Of a stretch of DNA of 20,243 nucleotides, positions 1 to 11,574 are shown piece after piece. The notes under the pieces are model-generated. The model worked only from the letters and a program-made list of their open reading frames with translations, made no database searches and was not told where the DNA came from. How positions within the stretch are numbered: the stretch's first letter is position 1; the number at the start of each line of letters is the position of its first letter. The translations under genes were made by a program, and so were the position numbers. This DNA comes from a virus, in IMG/VR virus record IMGVR_UViG_3300035665_000293, positions 1-20,243 of that record. One strand, 5' to 3'.

Positions 1-2549
1 GGGCCAGCCTCGGCCTTAGAAGCAAGAACCTCTTCCACTGCCTGTGCATTGCTCATGCCGGGGAGTTTGACCGCATCCGCCGCAGCGCGAGTCGCCGGGT
101 TAGTGTCGTAGATATCGTTCAGGATGTCGTCAAGACGAGTGCGGAACTTTTGGCGCAAACCAAAATGGCCTAGACTTTCATGGAGGACAGTCGCATGTAC
201 GTCAGCCCGGTCATTAGCGCGACTGGCGATAACGTAGGTCTTACCTTCTTTGTAAAAACCTTTGGTGTTCGGTTTGATCTGCACGCCTTGTGGAATACGC
301 GCATCGTTCTCATCGTCAAGAACAACAATTTCTGGTGCGTTAGTCCAGCCCTGAGCGGCTTCGTTTGCGGCCTGCTCGACATCAGGCTTTGCCATAACAG
401 GCGACGGCGGCACTTGCCCCGTGCGGAACAGATCATTGGGATCAACTTCAATTAAAGGAGTTGGGCGGGTTTCTTCAATTCCAGAAATATCACCTAATGC
501 AGGCTCGACTCTTTCCGTTCTTGGAGCAACATCAGCAGCAACTCGTGGAGCAGGCTCCACTCTTTCACTTTCAACTGGCGCAACTTCTGATCTAACGGGT
601 TCTGGTCCCGGTAAAGGCAATTCAGGGCTTCTTCCAACTGTTCCAACGTCAGGCGTTTCAGTAACTGTTGGTGTTGTTTGGACGGATACACTCGGAGCCT
701 CCCTAGGTTGCCCCATCGTGATACTGCGCTTTCCTTTCTTGATAGGTGTGACAACCCCTTCAAGTTCCATTCGTTTAAGAAGTTCAGTGGCTTTCTTGAG
801 CCCAACGTTAAGCGCCTTCTGAATCGTTGCAGGGGCGGGATTACCAGACTGCAGAACAACTTCAACCGCTTGTCGATAAAGCGGATCTTCAACAGTGGTT
901 GGCTCCATTGGCAGCGCGACTTGAGCGCCTGCGGCCTGCGGAATGGGAGCAACACCTCCTGACGGTGCGGGAACCGTAACAGGTTGAGTCTTAGGCGCAG
1001 TCTCTGCGCCGGGGACACCAATAGCCGCTGCCAGCGGCTGATCAATTTGAAGAGTCTGCTGCGCTCCTGCTACCTGCGGAATCCCTGTAATCGGCGTAGC
1101 CGGTGTGGTCGGCACTACCGGAGGAGGGGTCTGTATTAACTGCTGCTGAGCAGTCGCAGTTTGCGGAATTGGAGGAACGGGTGCTGCGGGCGGGGGAGAT
1201 ACCGGTGTGCCTGACAGTTCTTGAAGTCTTAAACGAATGTAAGGAATGGCTTCTTTGAGCCTATCAGCCTTTGCAAGGAGCCTTTGTTCAACCTCAACAG
1301 GATCGAGTCCCGTCTTACGAGCAACTTCTTCGTTCTCTTCAACTTTGGCAGGATCAGCAAGATCAAACGAAAGTCTTTCTAAATCGGCTTCTGCTAATTT
1401 AAGCGCCTCAGCCGCCTCCTTTGGCGTGTCAAGTTTATTTAGAACTGAACGCAGTTCGGGGGAAGCCCCCTCAAAAGACGTAGGCAGTGGAGGCTCGGCG
1501 GCTTTGGCTGCGGCTTCCTGTTCTTTCTTTACCGCTTCGATTTCTTCTTGCGTTTCAGAAACTATGTCAGCAGGAGGAGCAGTCTCTTGTACTTTGTCCC
1601 TAGCAGCAGATCTACTAGCAAGCCTACCGACAGCACCTAGTGGAGCCATCAATCCAGTCTGATACGCAACCTCGCCATACTCTCGCATGGCGTCATCACT
1701 TGTAAGCGGAAGTCCTGCTTGAGCGCGTTCTAATGCTTGCTGAGCAACTTCGGTGGGAACTTCGGCAGCCACACCTACGACGGCACCTTTGGCTACTGTC
1801 TTGACTAAACCTTCTTTAGCCAGTTTTTCAGCGGCCTCGATATCTCCTTTTGCAAGTAAATCGTCTACTTTCTTACCAAGTTCACCAAAAAGTTTTTTAC
1901 CTAAAACTCGTCCAACGACAAGAAATTGACTTGCTACATCAAGCGCGGCTTGCGGAACAGCAGCGGCAGCGGCGGCTGTACGAGAGATATCCACATCCCG
2001 GCCTGCAGCGATGTCTTCTTCGGCCTGACGCTGAATGTTAGAACCGTACTGCTGCAAGAAAGACGGAGCAACGGCACCGGCTGTACTACCAACCAACGCG
2101 CCAATAGGCCCAAGTGGAGCGCCAGCAGCCGAACCTGCTATAGCCCCCGCCACGGTAGCACCCATCTGCGGCAACTGTTCTGCGATAGCACCGGGGATAC
2201 TGCCGACAACTTCGCCCGCAGCGCCTAACGCGCCACGTTCACCGTAGGCTTGCTTAACTTTTTCAAGACTCGCGCCTTCGCCGTACTCTTCAGTGATTCC
2301 TCTGCTACGCTCAGCAGCAGCAAGTGCGGCTTTCTCGGCATCGCTTAATGATTCAATAGCAGTGCGGCCACTCGAAATCATCGACTTAAGGCCGCTCATG
2401 AACCTATCGCCTACGCCGCCTTTTTCTTCCTCTTGTTGTTGTGCCTCAAGTTGTTTCGCATAGGCAATGGCCTGCTCCAGAGTTGCCCCCGGAGGCCCAT
2501 TAACTTCATACTTTTTTCCAGACGGCGAAGTGACTAAAAACTTAGGCAC
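1..2549 (-). CDS. Large multidomain (polyvalent-type) phage protein with FtsK-gamma-like domain and HExxGH metallopeptidase, 3' end cut by window
   Basis: The frame is open from a GTG at 2549 to the left edge: 849 residues visible, C-terminus missing. The GTG is preferred because a TGAGGT Shine-Dalgarno lies 7 bases upstream and the first residues, MPKFLVTSPSGKKYEV, match the N-terminus typical of large phage proteins. Visible in order: that N-terminal domain (1-40); a Gly/Ala-rich, membrane-compatible stretch (about 105-165); a helical part with the phrase PTEVAQQALERAQAG (about 265-280); a charged coiled region (330-440); a Pro-rich linker with three IPQxAxAQ motifs (about 460-550); an FtsK gamma-like winged helix (553-610); a Pro/Glu linker with ERVEPA twice (610-690); and a zincin-type metallopeptidase with HESLGH at 790-795 and AVEEVLASKAE near 837-847. 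Large phage proteins of this kind are thought to travel in the virion and act in the host; that role is inferred here from composition and gene position. It is the last gene after three other ejection-like proteins. Confidence 0.88.
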   Translation of the reverse strand, partial: MPKFLVTSPSGKKYEVNGPPGATLEQAIAYAKQLEAQQQEEEKGGVGDRFMSGLKSMISSGRTAIESLSDAEKAALAAAERSRGITEEYGEGASLEKVKQAYGERGALGAAGEVVGSIPGAIAEQLPQMGATVAGAIAGSAAGAPLGPIGALVGSTAGAVAPSFLQQYGSNIQRQAEEDIAAGRDVDISRTAAAAAAVPQAALDVASQFLVVGRVLGKKLFGELGKKVDDLLAKGDIEAAEKLAKEGLVKTVAKGAVVGVAAEVPTEVAQQALERAQAGLPLTSDDAMREYGEVAYQTGLMAPLGAVGRLASRSAARDKVQETAPPADIVSETQEEIEAVKKEQEAAAKAAEPPLPTSFEGASPELRSVLNKLDTPKEAAEALKLAEADLERLSFDLADPAKVEENEEVARKTGLDPVEVEQRLLAKADRLKEAIPYIRLRLQELSGTPVSPPPAAPVPPIPQTATAQQQLIQTPPPVVPTTPATPITGIPQVAGAQQTLQIDQPLAAAIGVPGAETAPKTQPVTVPAPSGGVAPIPQAAGAQVALPMEPTTVEDPLYRQAVEVVLQSGNPAPATIQKALNVGLKKATELLKRMELEGVVTPIKKGKRSITMGQPREAPSVSVQTTPTVTETPDVGTVGRSPELPLPGPEPVRSEVAPVESERVEPAPRVAADVAPRTERVEPALGDISGIEETRPTPLIEVDPNDLFRTGQVPPSPVMAKPDVEQAANEAAQGWTNAPEIVVLDDENDARIPQGVQIKPNTKGFYKEGKTYVIASRANDRADVHATVLHESLGHFGLRQKFRTRLDDILNDIYDTNPATRAAADAVKLPGMSNAQAVEEVLASKAEAG
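3..200 (-). other. Zincin-type metallopeptidase domain (HExxGH), truncated at window edge
   Basis: Residues about 784-849 read DVHATVLHESLGHFGLR, followed about 44 residues later by AVEEVLASKAE. HExxGH supplies two zinc-binding histidines and a catalytic glutamate in DPP III-type (M49) enzymes, and large phage polyvalent proteins often carry HExxGHxGLR followed by an EE motif that would give the third ligand. The rest of the domain lies beyond the window. Substrate unknown. Confidence 0.72.
720..893 (-). other. FtsK gamma-like winged-helix domain inside the large phage protein
   Basis: Residues about 553-610 read EDPLYRQAVEVVL, then a turn, IQKALNVGLKKATELLKRME, then LEGVVTP and a basic tail. 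The FtsK gamma domain has the same order: DPL(Y/F)xxAVxxV, xxQRxxxIGYNRAAxxIxxME, GIVxP. In FtsK this domain reads KOPS (GGGNAGGG) and contacts XerD. Length and hydrophobic spacing match. The IGYNRAA part of the recognition helix is VGLKKAT here, so the usual Asn and Arg are both replaced by Lys and the target may differ. The assignment is pattern recognition from memory, not a profile search. Confidence 0.78.
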
Positions 2550-2562: not shown

Positions 2563-3957
2563 GTCAACTTGCTGACCGCTCCAAGCACCGCCACTACTAG
2601 CAGCAGGTGCCCCACCGCCTTGTGCTTCGAGTATGTTAATTGGCTCTTTTTTTGTACCGTTTGAAGATGTTTTAGTTGAAAGAAGAGACTCGGTTATTTT
2701 TGTTACTTCCGCATCCGCACGTTGTAGTTGAGCCTGCAACGCAGCCTTCTTAGCCGGGTCTTTTTCAATAGCAACTTGTTCTCTTAAAACCCCAGCCTTA
2801 GCCAAAGCGCTGCCAAGCACGTAGTCAGTTGAAGTACCGCGACCCGCTTCAACTCTAGCCCGCGCGTCGTTAACAACAATTTGAGTGCCACGATCATACT
2901 GAGCCAACTGCATACGAGATGCGGCTTCAAACCCGGCCAAAGCGGTGCGGAATTTGTATTCTTCCGCAATTTTTTCACGCTCAAATTGACGATCATTAAG
3001 AGTCTTTTCAGCGTCAATCAAACGCTGTTCATTTTTGTCTACACGGTTCATTGCGGCGGTCGTGCGCGTTGCTACCGCCGTTTCTTTAGCCTTAGTCAAA
3101 CCAATAGCAGCCTTCTCCCGTTCATTACGAGCAGCGCGAATCTCCTTCTCAAGTTCGCGCTCACGAGTTACCGCTGCACTACGGGCTTTAGCCATAGACA
3201 TCAACAGCGTAGGCGACTTAGTAGCGTAGCCTGCAATATCCGCAGCCTCTTGCCGACGCAGGTTTTCCTTATCCCGCATCAACTCCTCAAGCGACCGCTT
3301 CTCTTGCGTCTTCAACAAATTACGTTCTTCTTCAAGAGACTTGGCGTACTCGCCAATACCTTGTTCTTTCTCAATTCCTTCCAACGTTTCTTCTTCTTTC
3401 TTAAACGCCGGGACGTAACCTTGTCCCATAATGTTAGCGTAGTAGTTAAACAACTCTTGATCCGAGCGCGGTTTCTGCAAATTCGCAGCCACGATGGGCG
3501 GCGCAGACTGAGGCACCCCACCTTCTTCAAACGCCACGATGCCGCCACCCGCGAAGCCCTGCGGATTCTCCATCGCCCCTGCATTAAGAGCGCCAAGACC
3601 CTGCTGCATCGGAGGCGGTTGTTGTGGCATTTGCGGCATCTGCCCTGCCATCTGAGGAGGCATACCGCCCTGCGGCATACCTTGCATAGCACCCATAGGC
3701 ATCCCGCCTTGTTGAGCCTGAGCCATAGCGGCAATCTGCTCACGAATAGTCGGGGTCTGCGGAGACTGAGTTTCCGGTTGCTTCAACTGCTCAAACTGCT
3801 TGAGCATGGCAGGGAGATCAATCAGCGGGGCAATACCCTGCTGGGCCATACCTTTGACATAAGTGGCCGCTTGATCGACGGGCATACCCCTCTGCATTGC
3901 CCCGTGAAGCGAAGTGAGCATCGTCCGCACAAGCGGATTAAGTGGAGATACGGCCAT
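2560..3957 (-). CDS. Coiled-coil, Met/Gln/Gly-rich probable internal virion protein
   Basis: This 465-residue protein has a helical N-terminus (1-60, MAVSPLNPLVRTMLTSLHGA), a low-complexity Met/Gln/Pro/Gly stretch (about 80-130), the phrase GFAGGGIVAFEEGG (134-147), a long highly charged helical or coiled-coil part (about 185-370), and a Gly/Ala/Ser-rich tail. It contains no cysteine. I recognise it only as a type found in uncultured aquatic phages next to the Gln-rich protein encoded just upstream. Composition and position, after the nozzle gene and among other large helical proteins, suggest a DNA-ejection or internal core protein; this is inference. The ATG has GGAGG 9 bases upstream (3967-3971), inside the end of the previous gene. 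No catalytic motif was found. Confidence 0.85.
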   Translation of the reverse strand: MAVSPLNPLVRTMLTSLHGAMQRGMPVDQAATYVKGMAQQGIAPLIDLPAMLKQFEQLKQPETQSPQTPTIREQIAAMAQAQQGGMPMGAMQGMPQGGMPPQMAGQMPQMPQQPPPMQQGLGALNAGAMENPQGFAGGGIVAFEEGGVPQSAPPIVAANLQKPRSDQELFNYYANIMGQGYVPAFKKEEETLEGIEKEQGIGEYAKSLEEERNLLKTQEKRSLEELMRDKENLRRQEAADIAGYATKSPTLLMSMAKARSAAVTRERELEKEIRAARNEREKAAIGLTKAKETAVATRTTAAMNRVDKNEQRLIDAEKTLNDRQFEREKIAEEYKFRTALAGFEAASRMQLAQYDRGTQIVVNDARARVEAGRGTSTDYVLGSALAKAGVLREQVAIEKDPAKKAALQAQLQRADAEVTKITESLLSTKTSSNGTKKEPINILEAQGGGAPAASSGGAWSGQQVD

Positions 3958-3959
3958 TA

Positions 3960-5054
3960 TTACCTTCCTCCGAACAAGGTGCCGAGACCACCGCCGCTAC
4001 CCAGCACACCGCCAATCATACCGAAAGTGCTAGACGGCTCGTAGATGCTGGTAGTTTTATCCGAAGACGGCGTACCGCGCAGAAGATTAGAGAAGAACTC
4101 AAGTTGCTTGTACGGGTACTGCATCTCGTCAATGAAGCGTTGGTAATCCGATGCCAGTTTCTGCTGCATAAGATTCTGCTGCTGACCACCCGCACCAAGT
4201 TGCGCCTGATTAATGCCCAACTCTTGTTGATACTGTTGCTGACCAAGATTGCCGAGCATACCTGCCGCAGCCAACTGTTGCTGAAGCCCTTGAAGCCCAA
4301 GACCCGCGCCAAACTGACGGGACTGCTCACCCAACTGTGTACCGGCTAATCCGTATTGAGCACGAAGTTGTGCGTCTTGCGCCGCCTGCTGTGCAGCCTG
4401 TTGGTAGGCGTTCTGAAGCCCCGTGGCTTGAATGTTAGACATTTGATCGGCCAGCCCACGACGGCTTTCAAACTCAGCCAAGGCTTGACGGCTTCCGCCA
4501 AGTGCGCCAGCACGTGTTCCAGCAGCACGCATACCGGGAATCTGCCGGGAAAAGTCCTTAACAGCCTGTTTTTTCTGCTGCTCTACAACGCCCTGCATGT
4601 AAGGCGACATGTATTTATCAAGACCGCCCGGAGCGTCAAAAGCAGATTTATAAAAATCACCCGGCTGTAGTGCTTCATATTGACCGGCTTTTTGTGCGGC
4701 GAGCCCTGCAAGCCCTGCCAGACCAGTAGCCTGACCGATCTGCGGGGCGACTTTCATGCCCCCAATAGACTCCATCGCCTTCTTCTGCAGATCGCTAAAG
4801 TCAGCGACAAGCGGGCGCTCATACGGACGGAAGCCCGATTCAAGGATCGGTACCTGCTTTCCATCTTTATCTAGGATCGGCTGACCCGTAGAAGGATCAG
4901 TTTGAAACATCGGCTTGCCCGTTTTCGGGTCAATCTTTTGCTTCGGATAAGTTAACGCTGCGCCGTACCCGAGCAAGTCTTCGGCGTACTTACGCGCCCA
5001 CTCAGGGATGTTAGAAGTAATCGTGGTGGTTGATGTAGGAGTTGATTCAGCCAT
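3960..5054 (-). CDS. Gln/Ala/Gly-rich probable internal virion (ejection) protein
   Basis: A 364-residue protein. Residues 1-20 are Thr/Ser-rich, followed by IPEWARKYAEDLLGYG and a short stretch resembling an Asp-rich turn repeat (about 40-70, DPKTGKP, DPSTGQP, DKDGKQ). The core is a long Ala/Gln/Gly-rich helical region (about 105-300) containing YMSPYMQGVVEQQKKQAVKD and AGALGGSRQALAEFESRRG, a signature I recall in uncultured aquatic phages. The C-terminus is Gly-rich and weakly hydrophobic (MIGGVLGSGGGLGTLFGG), which could touch membrane. It contains no cysteine and no enzymatic motif. Long Gln/Ala helices resemble podovirus internal core or ejection proteins; function inferred. The ATG has a strong GGAGG 7-8 bases upstream. 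Confidence 0.87.
   Translation of the reverse strand: MAESTPTSTTTITSNIPEWARKYAEDLLGYGAALTYPKQKIDPKTGKPMFQTDPSTGQPILDKDGKQVPILESGFRPYERPLVADFSDLQKKAMESIGGMKVAPQIGQATGLAGLAGLAAQKAGQYEALQPGDFYKSAFDAPGGLDKYMSPYMQGVVEQQKKQAVKDFSRQIPGMRAAGTRAGALGGSRQALAEFESRRGLADQMSNIQATGLQNAYQQAAQQAAQDAQLRAQYGLAGTQLGEQSRQFGAGLGLQGLQQQLAAAGMLGNLGQQQYQQELGINQAQLGAGGQQQNLMQQKLASDYQRFIDEMQYPYKQLEFFSNLLRGTPSSDKTTSIYEPSSTFGMIGGVLGSGGGLGTLFGGR
3967..3971 (-). promoter_or_regulatory. Ribosome binding site GGAGG for the 465-residue protein
   Basis: The minus strand reads GGAGGAAGGTAATAATG. The site lies within the last codons of the upstream gene, whose TAA ends 2 bases before the ATG. Confidence 0.75.
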
Positions 5055-5068: not shown

Positions 5069-8000
5069 TTAGCGCCGTGATTTCTTGCGCGATGGGACAG
5101 GTAAAAATTTATCTACGTTAACTTGCGGGGCTTGCTTTGACTTACCCGTTCGCGCTTTACGAATCAGCGCCATCATCTGATACAGTTTTTTAGCACCGGC
5201 CTCAGTCGATCCGTTGCCAAGATGCGACACCACATCAGCGGGGATAACGAACTCGCCATCCGCCAACGCAGCACGCTGCACACCCTTACCCCGTATCACG
5301 GCAGGAATATCATCAGACATACCGTCTCCCGGTCCTCGCAGGAGTTTACCACCGGCTTGGTATTCCGGCATGGGCGCCATACCGCCTCGGGCGAAGCCAA
5401 AGTTGTATCCGTCAGCGGGGTTCCGCGCTCCGCCAATCCTAGGCAAATCGGCTATTCCGCCCATTTGATACTTTCTAATACGTCCTTTTTTCACATGTCC
5501 TCCAGCAAACCCGCCTTTACCATCTGATAAATCTTTATAACATCCTAGCCATGGGTCAGCCTCATAAGGAACCCCACGTTCGTCATAACAAAGTCCATCT
5601 TCTCCAGCAGGACTATCTTCCCACCACCAAACGCAGCGACCTACTCGTGCGTCAAAAAACTGCCCAAACGAGCACTGCGGTTGCGGTACGTTGCCATAAT
5701 CAGGTGCGTCCCCACTCGGTTCACGACCTTCAGGAATCGGCGCACAGTCGTCAGAATAAATCGGGTTACCGTCACCGTCGTAGCCCATGAATTGCTTTGA
5801 GTATCCAAACGGGCATGACCCATCCGCGTTTTTAGGCACCCTACCTTCTGACGGAGTTGGGGTCGGCGTTGGAGTGGGTTCAGGTGTAGGCTCCGGCGTA
5901 GGAGTCGGAGCGGGTTCGGAGGTTACTCCGCAAGGCGAAGGCTCCCCAAGTCCACGGGTGTAAGTCATACCATCCGGGCATCTGCCGTAGCAAACGTCGC
6001 CTACTTGCACTTCATCCGGGGCGCACTGTTCTTGTCCGCCACCGCCACCGGGCGCAGGGGTTGGAGTAGGTTCGGGTGTCGGAGTAGGTGTTGGTTCGGG
6101 AGTTGGCGCAGGGGTGGGTTCCGGCGCAGGGGTCGGAGCCGGGGTGGGTTCCGGTGCAGGGGTCGGAGCCGGGGTTGGAGCAGGAGTTGGAGCAGGAGTC
6201 GGAGCGGGAGTCGGAGCCGGGGTTGGCGTCTCCCTAATAGGGCAATTCTCCCAAGATGGAATAAGCGAGCCATCTGGGCATCTTTTAAGCAGCGTCTCTG
6301 GCGAAGGGGCCGGAGTAGGTGCGGGGGTAGGCGTGGGTGCGGGCGTTGGAGCCGGTGCAGGACTTTGTTTTTTACGGCAAGCACCTAGCCCACCGTCTGC
6401 TCGCGGGTCATATTCGTATTCATTACCGTACTGCGCCTGACAGTCAGTATCACTGACTCCGTTAAATCGGCACCGGCCTATCTCATAGTCATAGACATAC
6501 CCCGGTTCAGCGCATCGGGGATCTTGCGTAGGCTCCGGCTCAGTAGGCGTCGGTACGGGTGTAGGAGTCGGAGTGGGTTCAGGTGTAGGTGCAGGCTCCG
6601 GCGCAGGGGTTGGAGTAGGTGTTGGTGCGGGTGTAGGTTCAGGTGTAGGAGTCGGAGTGGGTGCGGGCGTAGGCTCCGGCGCGGGAGTCGGAGTAGGTGT
6701 AGGTTCGGGGGCTGGAGTCGGGCAGACTTCCCATGAGGGAACAATAGACCCGTCAGGACAGGTCTTGAGTAATGGTTCTTCCTCCTCCGGTGGGGTCGGA
6801 GTAGGTGTAGGTGCAGGCTCCGGCGCAGGGGTTGGAGTAGGAGCGGGTTCCGGCGCAGGGGTTGGAGTGGGTGTAGGTGTAGGCTCCGGTGTAGGAGTCG
6901 GAGTGGGCGTAGGCGCGGGTGTAGGTGTAGGTGTAGGCTCCGGTGTAGGAGTCGGAGCGGGCGTAGGCGCGGGTGTAGGTGTAGGTGTAGGCTCCGGTGT
7001 AGGAGTCGGAGCGGGCGTAGGCGCGGGTGTAGGGGTTGGAGCCGGGGTTGGAGCCGGAGCAGGCGTAGTTCCGCCAGTATCACCGCCCGGCGTAGTACCT
7101 CCGCCACCTGTACCCGGACCTGTACCACCGCCGGTACCCGGACCAGATCCGCCGCCATCGCCGCCACCATCGCCGCCCCCAGTGCCGGGACTCTTTACAC
7201 AGGGATCAAGCCCCGCTTCCCATCTGGCAAAATCAAAAGTAAAGCCCGGCTGGCACTCGGGTTTAGACGGAGGCGGTGCGGGGGTTGGAGTCGTGGGAGG
7301 CTCCCACGGATATTTAACTACTGGGCCATAAACAGTCTCCGCACGTTGCGGAGTGGTTCTTAAATACTCATCAAGATTCAGATCCATCGGCTTCGCGGCA
7401 GTCGGCGGTCTGAGCAAAGACTGATACCAATCGGCGAGTTCTTGATCGAACGGCATACCATTGGTATCAGCCTTCACTCCAGTCGGAGCAGGCTGAGGAA
7501 GTCGATTAACCGGATGGCGCTTTAAGTCATCTTCGCCCTGAACTGGGGCGCTGCCAGATTCGGCAGCGGCGCGATACCATTCAGGCAGGGCGGGGGCGAA
7601 AGGGAGGAGGCTTTTGAAATACTCCTCTTTGGCTTTTTCAGAATCAGCAGTACCACCTTCAGCGAAGGTTTCTTCGCCTGTGTAAATGTCTACTTTAGGC
7701 TCATACCCGTTACCCTGTGTGCGGACCATCGGATAAGAAAAATTCGGCTGTGGCACTACCCCGCCAACCGCCATACCGCGTCGGTAATAATCTTCTTCCT
7801 CATCAGGTGGACGTTCTGGTGGAGGAGACTGGTACGGCGAACTCTGCCGCATCCCTTGTTGCGGGTTCTGCGTATAGCCCGGATATTCAGTGCCGTAGCC
7901 GTAATCAGCGTAACCGCCTTCAATAAAGTACGGTTGGCCCGGCTCACCAAAACGCGGGTTGACTCGACCGGGGCTGTACTGAACATTCCTATACCCAACC

Positions 8001-8680
8001 GGAGTCGGCTTAGGCATCCCGCCTCGCGGGTTCATCTTCTGCTCCGCCTTGTTCAAGGCGTACATCGTAATAGCCTGCATGATCGGGTCTTTGGTGAGCC
8101 CGAAAAGCCCTTTGGGCTGGCCGCCCTGTTGCGGAGCGCCTAGAAGTCCACGCAGACCACTAGAAACATCTTTGCCCAGAGGCTGCTGTACTGTGGGTTT
8201 TACCGGTTCAACGCCAATACCGGGGGCAATCTCACCAAAATCTTCAGGACCGGGAGGACGTTCTCTATACCCAGTTGGACCGGCGATCCCCGGAATCCTA
8301 CGCTGGGCTTCTTCTGCAAGACCTCCAAGAATCCGCGTACCGGCATAGGCTTTCATGCCTGCCTCAAGACCTTTTTGCAGATCTCCCTTCACCGCGCCAT
8401 ACGCGGCTCCGGCAAGCATGGCGGTCGTTTGCGGGTTTTGGATGAGAGTCTTTCCAACAGACTGAACGCCTTTGACTACGGTGTTTAATATATTAGTAAG
8501 CCACCCGGCTTCCGGCAGTCCCGTAGCAGGATTACGCGGCATCTCCATACCTTGAGCGCGAGCCAAAAACTGAAGATTGCGTACTTCTTCAGGTGACATG
8601 TGGACAAGTGTGCTATCTGGTCCACGGCCTTGGGAGGCAAGGAGGGACGCAAGTCCTGCTGCGGGAGGTTGCTGGTTCAT
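5069..8680 (-). CDS. Giant Pro-Thr repeat protein with 20 cysteines in small modules; virion-associated
   Basis: A 1203-residue protein. Residues 1-475 are Gly/Pro-rich without cysteine; a weakly hydrophobic helix lies near 60-130. Residues 500-535 are almost all Gly with Asp, Ser, Thr and Pro. Pro-Thr-Ala-Glu tracts occupy about 538-720, 774-795, 817-877 and 922-943. Between them sit short cysteine modules: C476/C494, C641/C653, C723/C737/C747/C768, C801/C813, C886/C897/C901/C917, C956/C979 and C1003/C1016/C1031/C1047. Two are near copies ([26 protein letters not shown]). The C-terminus (about 1115-1190) holds [34 protein letters not shown] and a basic end, a conserved domain I recall in aquatic phage virion proteins. 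It lies between the beta-sandwich protein and two ejection-like proteins. Rigid Pro-rich spacers plus possible disulphide knots suggest a fibre or periplasm-spanning part; inferred. Confidence 0.88.
6118..6177 (-). repeat. 30-bp tandem repeat, two copies
   Basis: Two adjacent copies open with gtgggttccgg on the plus strand and differ at one visible base (ggcgcag versus ggtgcag). Each encodes a 10-residue [10 protein letters not shown]-type unit. Exact borders are approximate because flanking units are related. Confidence 0.7.
6881..7033 (-). repeat. 54-bp tandem repeat, nearly three copies
   Basis: Copies begin at 6881, 6935 and 6989, exactly 54 bases apart, each opening with aggctccggtgtaggagtc on the plus strand. 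The first two differ at one base that I can see (gtggg versus gcggg); the third diverges near 7033. Each unit encodes the 18 residues [18 protein letters not shown], so copy-number change would keep the frame. Confidence 0.9.
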
Positions 8681-8686
8681 AGATGT

Positions 8687-9286
8687 TTACTCATTTGCCT
8701 CGTAGTTTGATACCCACACCACTGTCAGAATGATGGACGGGATCGCTGGAATGTTACCAGTCGCGGCTACATACGGGATAACCACGTTGATGTCCGAAGA
8801 CTGCCAAGCCAACTCAAAATAGTCGTTTGCCTGCAGCACAAGCACAAAGTTCCACGCCGCCACAATCTCGTTGTTGGGGCCGTCAATAACGATCTTGGTA
8901 GCCGAGTCCGGCAGGTTTACCCCGTTAATTCGGGGCCAGATATATACGGCGCTTGCCGAACCGCCCGTTTTATCTAATTGGGCAGAAAACTGAAAGTTAT
9001 AAATACCCGTCTGAGCAACGAAGATTTTAGATGTGGGTACGCCGCGATTAACAGCCTGCTGGGTAACGACTGAATTGTAAGTAAATAAATTAACCGCATC
9101 CGCAACCGGATTCGGCTGCGTCGTCGTATCAAAATACGAAGCGTGTGCGGTCGGTGAATTAACCCGGTTGGCTACCTGACTAAAGAAAAGCCGCAAGACA
9201 TTACTAAACTGATCCTGATAACGGACACTATAATCCGCCGGTGCAACCGGTAGGTTTGGCGGAGATATGCCACGTGCGACGGTCAT
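8687..9286 (-). CDS. Beta-sandwich-like virion protein (probable tail-associated)
   Basis: A 199-residue, beta-rich, cysteine-free protein. The N-terminus reads ISPPNLPVAPADYSVRYQDQFSNVLRLFF, followed by a hydrophobic beta pattern (about 60-195) containing IYNFQFSAQLDK, VYIWPRINGVN and FVLVLQANDYFELAWQSSD. That spacing, with a GIYNFQFS-like strand and a DYFELAW-like strand, resembles jelly-roll/C1q-like domains found in phage receptor-binding proteins and decorations; this is inference from pattern only. The ATG overlaps the stop of the nozzle-like gene by four bases (ATGA, 9283-9286), so the two are translationally coupled and probably made in similar amounts. Confidence 0.85.
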   Translation of the reverse strand: MTVARGISPPNLPVAPADYSVRYQDQFSNVLRLFFSQVANRVNSPTAHASYFDTTTQPNPVADAVNLFTYNSVVTQQAVNRGVPTSKIFVAQTGIYNFQFSAQLDKTGGSASAVYIWPRINGVNLPDSATKIVIDGPNNEIVAAWNFVLVLQANDYFELAWQSSDINVVIPYVAATGNIPAIPSIILTVVWVSNYEANE

Positions 9287-11574
9287 CGACGTCCATCCGG
9301 TCGAACATCAATTCGCATCATGCCCATTTGCCAAGCAACGCCTAAGTCAGTCGAGTCCACACGGAACGCCATCTGGCGACCTCGGATACGAGTGTAGACC
9401 TGCCCCGTGTACTGCTGAATCGGTATCGTCGAGGTGCGCGTAACCACCGGCTGATCTGCTGCGGTGTAGTTTGAACCCGAGTTCTGCCTTGGCTTAACCG
9501 TCAGCGTAACGCTCGGACTACTGCCTGTTGACCCCGTAAAGTTAAGGTCAGGCAAGATGCGCCAGACATAGCCAAAACTCTGACCGTCTTGGATGTCGAA
9601 ATCAGACGATTCAATAAACGCCTCAATCGGCAGGGCTGGGGTCACTGACGCGTCGTCATTGCCAAATTCGTGATAGAGAACTTGGTTCGGCACTCTTAAC
9701 TCAACCATCGTGTACTGTTCATGCGAAGCAGCCGTCGTGCTATTCGCGCCACGAACGCAGCCTATCAAGGTATTACCGTCTTTAGACGTATACGTAATCT
9801 GCTCCGAGTCAATAACAACCGTACCCGCATTGGGGTAACTAGACGCATCCGTCAGAGCAATCGTCGTCACCAATGAGTTAATCGAAGTCGCTAAATACCC
9901 AATCTGGATCGAAAACGCGCCCATCGGATACTGCCGCTGAGTGTGTTCAGACCACGCGGTACGGTTCAAATTGCCGTAGTACCAAACACGTTCAAGATAG
10001 TTATAAATGACATAGCGGTCATTCACGAGGCTATTGAGAGACGGATAGAACCACCATACCTCGTTGTACCCTTCGTTTGCCCCAGAACAGATTTGATCCA
10101 ACTGGTCGAGGTTAATGTCGCTATAGACGAACTGACGAAGGGTGCAAGGCAGCGTCTCGACCCGCCCCGTGTACATGAAGAACTTATCCCGCCCCATCCA
10201 ATAGGTCACGTTGTTGACCGTAATTGCCGCGTTTTGCGAAGCAATTGATACGTCTTGGTCAAGAAGATTAAAGCCCCAGACAAACGGTGGTCCTAGATAC
10301 TGCATTGAGAAGATGGCTGTATCTGTCCAAATCAAGATCTCCTGACGAGTATTAAGCGCCGTAACTATGTACGAGCCGTGCGAGAGCGTCTGTTCTCCAG
10401 ACTGGTTAGTGACTTCCGGCACCCACTCAAACGCATTACTCTGGTCAGACCAGCGAACAAGGAGCGGATTAAACGTCGTTTGAAAATCAATCGGGTTATA
10501 CGGCGTGGCCCCAGCACAGATCACAAAGTCATTTACCGGCGAGTCAATCACCATTAGAACTTCTTTAGGGACATGTTGTCCTGCGTAACTAAATGCCAAA
10601 GCCGACACTGTGGCCGAGGCGTTTGTCGCCGTAGAAATCGTTACCGAAGTAGACCCATCCCATGCTGTCGTGACGTATGTGCCGGTCACGATGCCGCTAC
10701 CTGAAATGACTGCGCCAGTGTTAATCCCTGTGGCGTCATCCACCACAATAGTAGTTACGCCTGAAGCAAACGCTGCGGTTGCTTCCCATTTAGTTGTGGC
10801 ATCGGCTTTATCGGCAAGGGGAATAGCCCGACTCCAACTCGTCGTATCTAGCGTCCAAAAGTATATCGCCCCGTTACGCTCGGCAAATATGAGGTCATTC
10901 CCGTAATTAAACATAGACCAAAGACGCAACGGGACGCCTGCCCCCGTGCTTGATCCCCAACCCCCTTCGCCCCACGGAGGCCCACCCCAGCCGACTTGCG
11001 TCGTGGATATGGCAGTGCCTGCATCGATATCGAACTTGGCAATAACAAGCGATCCTCCGCCCGTCGCAGTAGAGGACGCCGTAGCGGAGGCGTAGATTGT
11101 GAAAGTATTAGAAGTTGGAACGGACTGAATGGGGTAGTCCCCATTAATTGTAAGACTCGCTACCGCTGTAGCCCCGCTAAAATTGACGTAAGTACCAACC
11201 GCTGACGCGTGGGCCGAGGCCGTTACCGTGACTAGACGACTACCTGATGTAGTAGAAAACGGGTCGGAAGATAACGTAAGGGATGCGGCAAGGGGCGTAA
11301 TATCGTAATAAACGCCGCCCAGTTCTGTATAAACTTTCTGGTTAGTACCGACACCCAGAAGATTCTGATTGAGTGTAGAAATCCAATTCCACAGGATTCG
11401 GGCTACGCCTTTAAACGTATTACCGCCGTTGGTGATATTGGTCCAACCGCCCAGTTTCTCCGCGTAGCCAGAGCGGAAACGAATTTTATCGCCCGCAAAG
11501 AACCCGCCTTCGTTGGCATAGGAGGTTGATTCACGATTTACGCCGGGGCGCAATTCAAGTTTTTGTAGGGGCAT
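9283..11574 (-). CDS. P22 gp10 / nozzle-like tail protein with three inserted beta modules
   Basis: A 763-residue protein. The start MPLQKLELRPGVNRESTSYANEGGF and a beta-propeller-like pattern of aromatic strands (LWSMFNYGNDLIFAERNGAIYFW, VWWFYPS, VIYNYLERVWYYGNLNRTAW) are typical of the large tail nozzle or stabilisation protein in short-tailed phages, which plugs the channel below the adaptors. Three low-aromatic Thr/Ser/Ala modules interrupt the core at about 95-178, 264-333 and 560-622; the last, IDSEQITYTSKDGNTLIGCVRG, is a mobile surface module seen in many phage proteins. The C-terminus (650-763) returns to beta structure. The ATG directly follows the TAG of the endolysin gene, with GGAG in its last codons. 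Nozzle is more likely than tape measure because no long helix is present. Confidence 0.87.
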   Translation of the reverse strand: MPLQKLELRPGVNRESTSYANEGGFFAGDKIRFRSGYAEKLGGWTNITNGGNTFKGVARILWNWISTLNQNLLGVGTNQKVYTELGGVYYDITPLAASLTLSSDPFSTTSGSRLVTVTASAHASAVGTYVNFSGATAVASLTINGDYPIQSVPTSNTFTIYASATASSTATGGGSLVIAKFDIDAGTAISTTQVGWGGPPWGEGGWGSSTGAGVPLRLWSMFNYGNDLIFAERNGAIYFWTLDTTSWSRAIPLADKADATTKWEATAAFASGVTTIVVDDATGINTGAVISGSGIVTGTYVTTAWDGSTSVTISTATNASATVSALAFSYAGQHVPKEVLMVIDSPVNDFVICAGATPYNPIDFQTTFNPLLVRWSDQSNAFEWVPEVTNQSGEQTLSHGSYIVTALNTRQEILIWTDTAIFSMQYLGPPFVWGFNLLDQDVSIASQNAAITVNNVTYWMGRDKFFMYTGRVETLPCTLRQFVYSDINLDQLDQICSGANEGYNEVWWFYPSLNSLVNDRYVIYNYLERVWYYGNLNRTAWSEHTQRQYPMGAFSIQIGYLATSINSLVTTIALTDASSYPNAGTVVIDSEQITYTSKDGNTLIGCVRGANSTTAASHEQYTMVELRVPNQVLYHEFGNDDASVTPALPIEAFIESSDFDIQDGQSFGYVWRILPDLNFTGSTGSSPSVTLTVKPRQNSGSNYTAADQPVVTRTSTIPIQQYTGQVYTRIRGRQMAFRVDSTDLGVAWQMGMMRIDVRPDGRR

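Follow-up and report, generated by a model that had tools for sequence, protein, structure and literature searches.

An FtsK gamma-family winged helix with altered recognition residues in a phage polyvalent protein

The FtsK gamma domain is small, reads DNA and is known above all from FtsK, the bacterial chromosome motor. A domain of this kind is encoded in a large phage gene of the window analysed here (20,243 nucleotides of the virus record IMGVR_UViG_3300035665_000293 in IMG/VR). We asked what such a domain may do in a phage protein that has no motor. An earlier note on this DNA had offered anchoring at host KOPS, interference with FtsK and recruitment of XerD as possible roles.

The gamma domain and the protein that carries it

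The earlier note had placed a gamma winged helix at residues 553-610, and the Pfam search that it proposed recovered the domain there. PF09397 (FtsK_gamma) matched residues 554-610 of the 849-aa ORF with 39.4 bits (E 4.8e-10), and the isolated nucleotides 720-893 with 45 bits (E 9.1e-12). Both scores exceed the curated cut-off of 30.6 bits. The best sequence matches in the PDB were the solved gamma domains of P. aeruginosa and E. coli FtsK. Structures 2j5o and 2ve8 were matched by phmmer with an E of about 3e-8, and the E. coli domain 2j5p with an E of 2e-4. The AlphaFold2 model of the domain consisted of three helices (pLDDT about 85-94) and a short wing, in agreement with the predicted winged helix. 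The top 13 Foldseek matches in the PDB were all FtsK gamma chains (rmsd 0.9-2.1 Å), and the model was closest to the KOPS-bound FtsK gamma (2ve9/2ve8, rmsd 0.9-1.7 Å). Since the alignment used for the model contained real FtsK gamma domains, the fold match cannot count as separate evidence from the sequence match, with which it agrees. Judged by sequence and predicted fold, the gamma match in this ORF is beyond chance. Sequence family, length and winged-helix fold are shared with FtsK gamma (PF09397; 2ve8/2ve9, 2j5p), whereas the window protein lacks the motor and has changes at the KOPS-reading and XerD-contacting residues that are described below.

The ORF runs off the window. The complete protein was obtained from a near-identical contig (L002), which agrees with the window at every one of the first 849 residues and gives a full length of 1,854 aa. 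Its order is an Ala/Gly-rich N-terminus, Pro/Ala-rich linkers, gamma, a Pro-rich linker, the HESLGH motif, LPD39 and a DarB-like C-terminus (Table 1). The Gly/Ala-rich segment said to be joined to gamma was thus confirmed by composition. No RecA-type motor was detected in the 1,854-aa protein with Pfam or PHROGs, so gamma is indeed detached from any ATPase. A metallopeptidase had also been claimed next to gamma. A motif is present, but it is of the HExxxH and not the HExxH type. The HExxxH class has been described among polyvalent-protein peptidases by Iyer et al. (PMC5512222). Based on the HESLGH motif and a match to phrog_14770, the segment is a putative peptidase; its fold was predicted poorly, and a structure search with the poor model returned no homologue.

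Table 1. Features of the window that bear on the gamma domain
Feature	Position	Strand	Residues	Basis or remark
Phage polyvalent protein, 5' part (849 of 1,854 codons, GTG start)	3..2549	-		ORF list; runs off window
HESLGH (HExxxH) metallopeptidase-type motif	165..182	-	790-795	sequence, alignments
Pro-rich linker after gamma	390..713	-	613-720	composition, linker HMM search
FtsK gamma-like winged helix	720..893	-	553-610	PF09397, PDB sequence matches, AlphaFold/Foldseek
Recognition helix LKKATELLKRMEL	762..800	-	584-596	limits from model, alignment to E. coli and P. aeruginosa FtsK
Pro/Ala-rich linker preceding gamma, PIPQxAxAQ repeats	894..1229	-	441-552	composition; repeats in relatives
Ala/Gly-rich N-terminal region	1620..2219	-	111-310	composition
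Gene similar to 'DNA ejection protein' family (phrog_4287)	3960..5054	-		upstream of polyvalent gene, same strand
Virion structural protein like podovirus 'stabilization protein'	9283..11574	-		late-gene context

LPD39 was found above cut-off at residues 945-1097 of the full-length protein. The C-terminal region of about 740 residues is homologous to DarB-like antirestriction proteins (phrog_10089, phage P1 DarB), and the match is restricted to the C-terminal region of that family (3944-4632 of 4647). Unlike DarB, the full-length protein gave no Pfam or PHROGs match to an adenine methylase or a SWI2/SNF2 helicase. Several unrelated domains are therefore combined in one protein, with FtsK_gamma and LPD39 above cut-off and the DarB-like C-terminus. 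LPD39, the DarB-like C-terminus and an ART-PolyVal domain in a member of the same lineage (L219) support the class assignment: the 1,854-aa protein is a phage polyvalent protein. Its late-gene neighbours are the DNA-ejection-like protein, the podovirus-type stabilization protein, a tail fibre and an endolysin. In line with the earlier note, the protein is probably ejected or a virion component, as its gene adjoins the DNA-ejection-like gene. Another of the virion genes (5069-8680) encodes 1,203 aa with long repeats rich in proline and threonine (PTPAP); the repeat number differs in another near-identical contig (L005). A search for tRNAs in the window found none.

Conservation and exchange of the module within the lineage

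The gamma domain was found in all near-identical contigs, and at the same place in relatives that are 71% identical. Between L002 and the relative L019 the domain is 77% identical and the following linker 56%. The dN/dS of the domain was about 0.15, a rough value because dS was above 1 and synonymous sites were near saturation. We then considered a lineage sample of 80 contigs, which was collected via a helicase gene shared with the distant contig L152 (54% identical). The polyvalent C-terminal region was present in 17 ORFs of this sample. Clear gamma domains were seen in the window-type contigs, the 71%-identical group and L223, where the domain has the same position, about 39% identity holds over the C-terminal region and the peptidase motif is missing. 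In L225, a closed ORF, neither gamma nor the peptidase motif was found, so the gamma module is dispensable. Several other ORFs of the lineage are cut by contig ends, and absence of gamma there means little. In L226, L261 and L262 the winged helices were either weakly gamma-like or of other types; in the N-terminal half, HTH_IclR was above cut-off in L261 and a MarR-like domain just below it in L262. As both segments are missing from L225, gamma stands alone in L223 and other winged helices occur in relatives, the gamma and the peptidase segment can be regarded as independent cassettes. L152 has the domain order of the window protein together with KOPS-type residues. Because the motif scan that detected it required such residues, it carries no statistical weight.

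Some smaller features of the linkers were observed. The PIPQ(T/A/V)AxAQ repeats of the linker before gamma are retained in L217, L223 and L291. The linker after gamma contains a 55-residue Pro/Gly-rich element that ends near (V)EPAL. It is conserved in L219, L223, L224 and L225 and is also kept in lineage proteins without gamma or the peptidase motif; it may mark the edge of a cassette or a place where the protein is processed. In L005 (6849-12674) about 90 extra residues lie between gamma and the peptidase motif. A similar stretch sits directly before gamma in L152, suggesting module shuffling.

Relatives outside the lineage were also sought. Two scans of cellular genome contigs, meant to point to a host, found no prophage relative. 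The gamma query of these contigs returned true FtsKs, with a helix GY-x-RA(A/S)R unlike that of the window, and one unrelated motor-less ORF. A search for LPD39 in Burkholderiales gave a single strong prophage protein (L212), which has a similar C-terminus without gamma and was set aside. A tblastn search with the window protein did not turn up any named phage whose polyvalent protein carries gamma.

The recognition helix and possible functions of the module

Residues of E. coli FtsK were numbered by counting back from the C-terminus of the sequence, a numbering that agrees with the published positions 1289-1297. These positions read RQFRIGYNR (PMC5052618). In the alignment, N1296 corresponds to K585, R1297 to K586, R1300 to E589, E1303 to K592 and E1306 to E595. 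The Asn and Arg of the helix had been noted earlier as both being Lys, and these substitutions are real (K585, K586). The key changes lie instead at R1300 and E1303, where the charges are reversed to Glu and Lys; R1297 is not among the tested specificity residues. KOPS recognition in E. coli is impaired by R1300A as well as by E1303A, each as a single substitution (PMC2680272). As a control, 36 FtsK gamma domains from cellular genomes were compared. R1297 and R1300 were invariant, position 1303 was Glu or Asp in all 36, and position 1296 was Asn in 34 and Ser in 2. The base-contact trio 1296/1300/1303 is K/E/K in the window, A/E/R in L019, R/E/N in L223 and N/R/E in L152. With the recognition residues altered, the warning that the target sequence may differ was correct.

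On balance, we favour the view that the FtsK-gamma-family winged helix is an exchangeable dsDNA-binding module that would keep an ejected protein tethered to DNA; the incoming phage genome is the most likely partner. The polyvalent protein, made with the virion genes, would be packaged and ejected together with the genome. The winged helix is basic, with a net charge of +4 compared to a mean of +1.6 for 145 gamma domains. On its flexible Pro-rich tethers it would keep the effector domains (peptidase-like, LPD39, DarB-like C-terminus) on dsDNA. We infer action in cis on the incoming phage DNA by analogy to DarB, which reportedly belongs to the virion and protects phage DNA in cis (PMC5512222). 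The rebuilt recognition helix may contact a sequence other than KOPS, or DNA in general. Against tethering to DNA, a winged helix can serve as a protein binder instead. A wider idea, namely that ejected polyvalent proteins carry exchangeable DNA-reading cassettes and that the gamma scaffold was re-targeted, placing the injected proteins of relatives on different DNA sequences, is put forward tentatively and is rather doubtful.

A more specific role, in which gamma reads a non-KOPS site on its own phage genome and positions the protein during packaging, ejection or first transcription, appears unlikely. As such a role would have it, relatives retain the scaffold and differ precisely at the base-contact positions, and the gamma-terminase fusion of Bacillus phage Sam46 suggests that phages can use gamma on their own DNA (PMC8190038). 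However, the module is replaced by other winged helices in some relatives and absent in L225, which argues against one essential site. We consider it improbable that the domain is a structural spacer or a protein-protein module without a DNA function. The lost recognition residues, the disordered-looking Pro-rich linkers on both sides and the dispensability in L225 would fit, but the domain is basic and conserved, and the same proteins show other winged helices of the DNA-binding type.

Binding of host KOPS, whether for anchorage on the host chromosome or in competition with FtsK, is very unlikely, even though family and fold are those of a KOPS reader. The charges at 1300 and 1303, needed in E. 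coli and retained in all control FtsKs, are reversed, N1296 (kept in 34 of the 36) is Lys, and the trio in L019 is A, E, R. From these residues, KOPS reading by the window domain is unlikely, and with the recognition helix rebuilt the tethering module should not read KOPS. GGGNAGGG is absent from the window (expected 2.8, sd 1.6) and occurs once in L002, which lends weak support. Anchoring at KOPS was therefore dropped as the leading idea, and interference with FtsK at KOPS, which would depend on the same residues, fell with it.

XerD is contacted in FtsK by the side chains of Q1288, R1289, R1292 and N1296 and by I1293 and G1294 (PMC5052618). Mimicry of FtsK gamma that would activate or block Xer recombination through XerD is very unlikely. 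Q1288 is unchanged, and Lys in place of R1289 could preserve the charge of the main salt bridge, but R1292 is Asn and N1296 is Lys. With half of the four contacting side chains altered (in L019, G1294 is also Asn and N1296 is Ala), the proposed XerD recruitment is unsupported and was set aside.

Detached gamma domains in other phages

The novelty implied for this locus was overstated. Iyer et al. (2017) had already counted the FtsK wHTH as one of the less frequent DNA-binding domains in this protein class, predicted dsDNA binding, and found it in polyvalent proteins with zincin peptidases, with Cupriavidus WP_029307715 as the named example (PMC5512222). The window protein shares with these proteins the giant multidomain late-gene type, the FtsK-type wHTH, an HExxxH-type peptidase motif and LPD domains. 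It differs in its phage lineage, and its recognition helix, compared with that of FtsK, has lost the KOPS residues. A small terminase containing gamma has been published for the Bacillus phages Sam46 and Sam112 (PMC8190038). This too is a motor-less gamma fused to a phage protein, but it is a packaging protein and has a conserved, bacterium-like DNA-binding surface. A small terminase of this type was the best match to the gamma model in a viral structure library, in which the fold matches also included a large polyvalent protein.

A scan of IMG/VR contigs for KOPS-type gamma motifs, confirmed by HMM, placed gamma in an ORF without a P-loop in 104 of 107 contigs. About 42 of these motor-less ORFs (L091-L209) are C-terminal fusions to RdgC-like proteins, and the others include uncharacterized proteins. 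A search of a limited set of papers on phage gamma and RdgC found no description of an RdgC-gamma fusion. Two giant polyvalent-type proteins were among the scanned contigs, L116 (4,304 aa, InPase and ART-PolyVal) and L152. By these sequence matches, detached gamma domains are common in phages. Given the listing by Iyer et al., the published terminase fusion and the widespread detached domains, FtsK wHTHs in polyvalent proteins are already known, and the window adds one more member. Here phages have put a cellular DNA reader to new use as a separable piece of a multidomain protein that is probably injected, and the surface that reads the sequence has been rebuilt. Some sister phages have the module and others lack it, which offers natural comparisons for the role of DNA-binding parts in polyvalent proteins.

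Two further phage proteins with gamma domains were observed. In gene 60 of Rhodobacter phage RcKemmy (L008, 2084-3505), gamma-type domains occur in tandem, the first with a changed helix and the second KOPS-like. In L184 (7417-9036), FtsK gamma is joined to a GapR-like DNA-binding domain in a phage protein, both above the Pfam cut-off.
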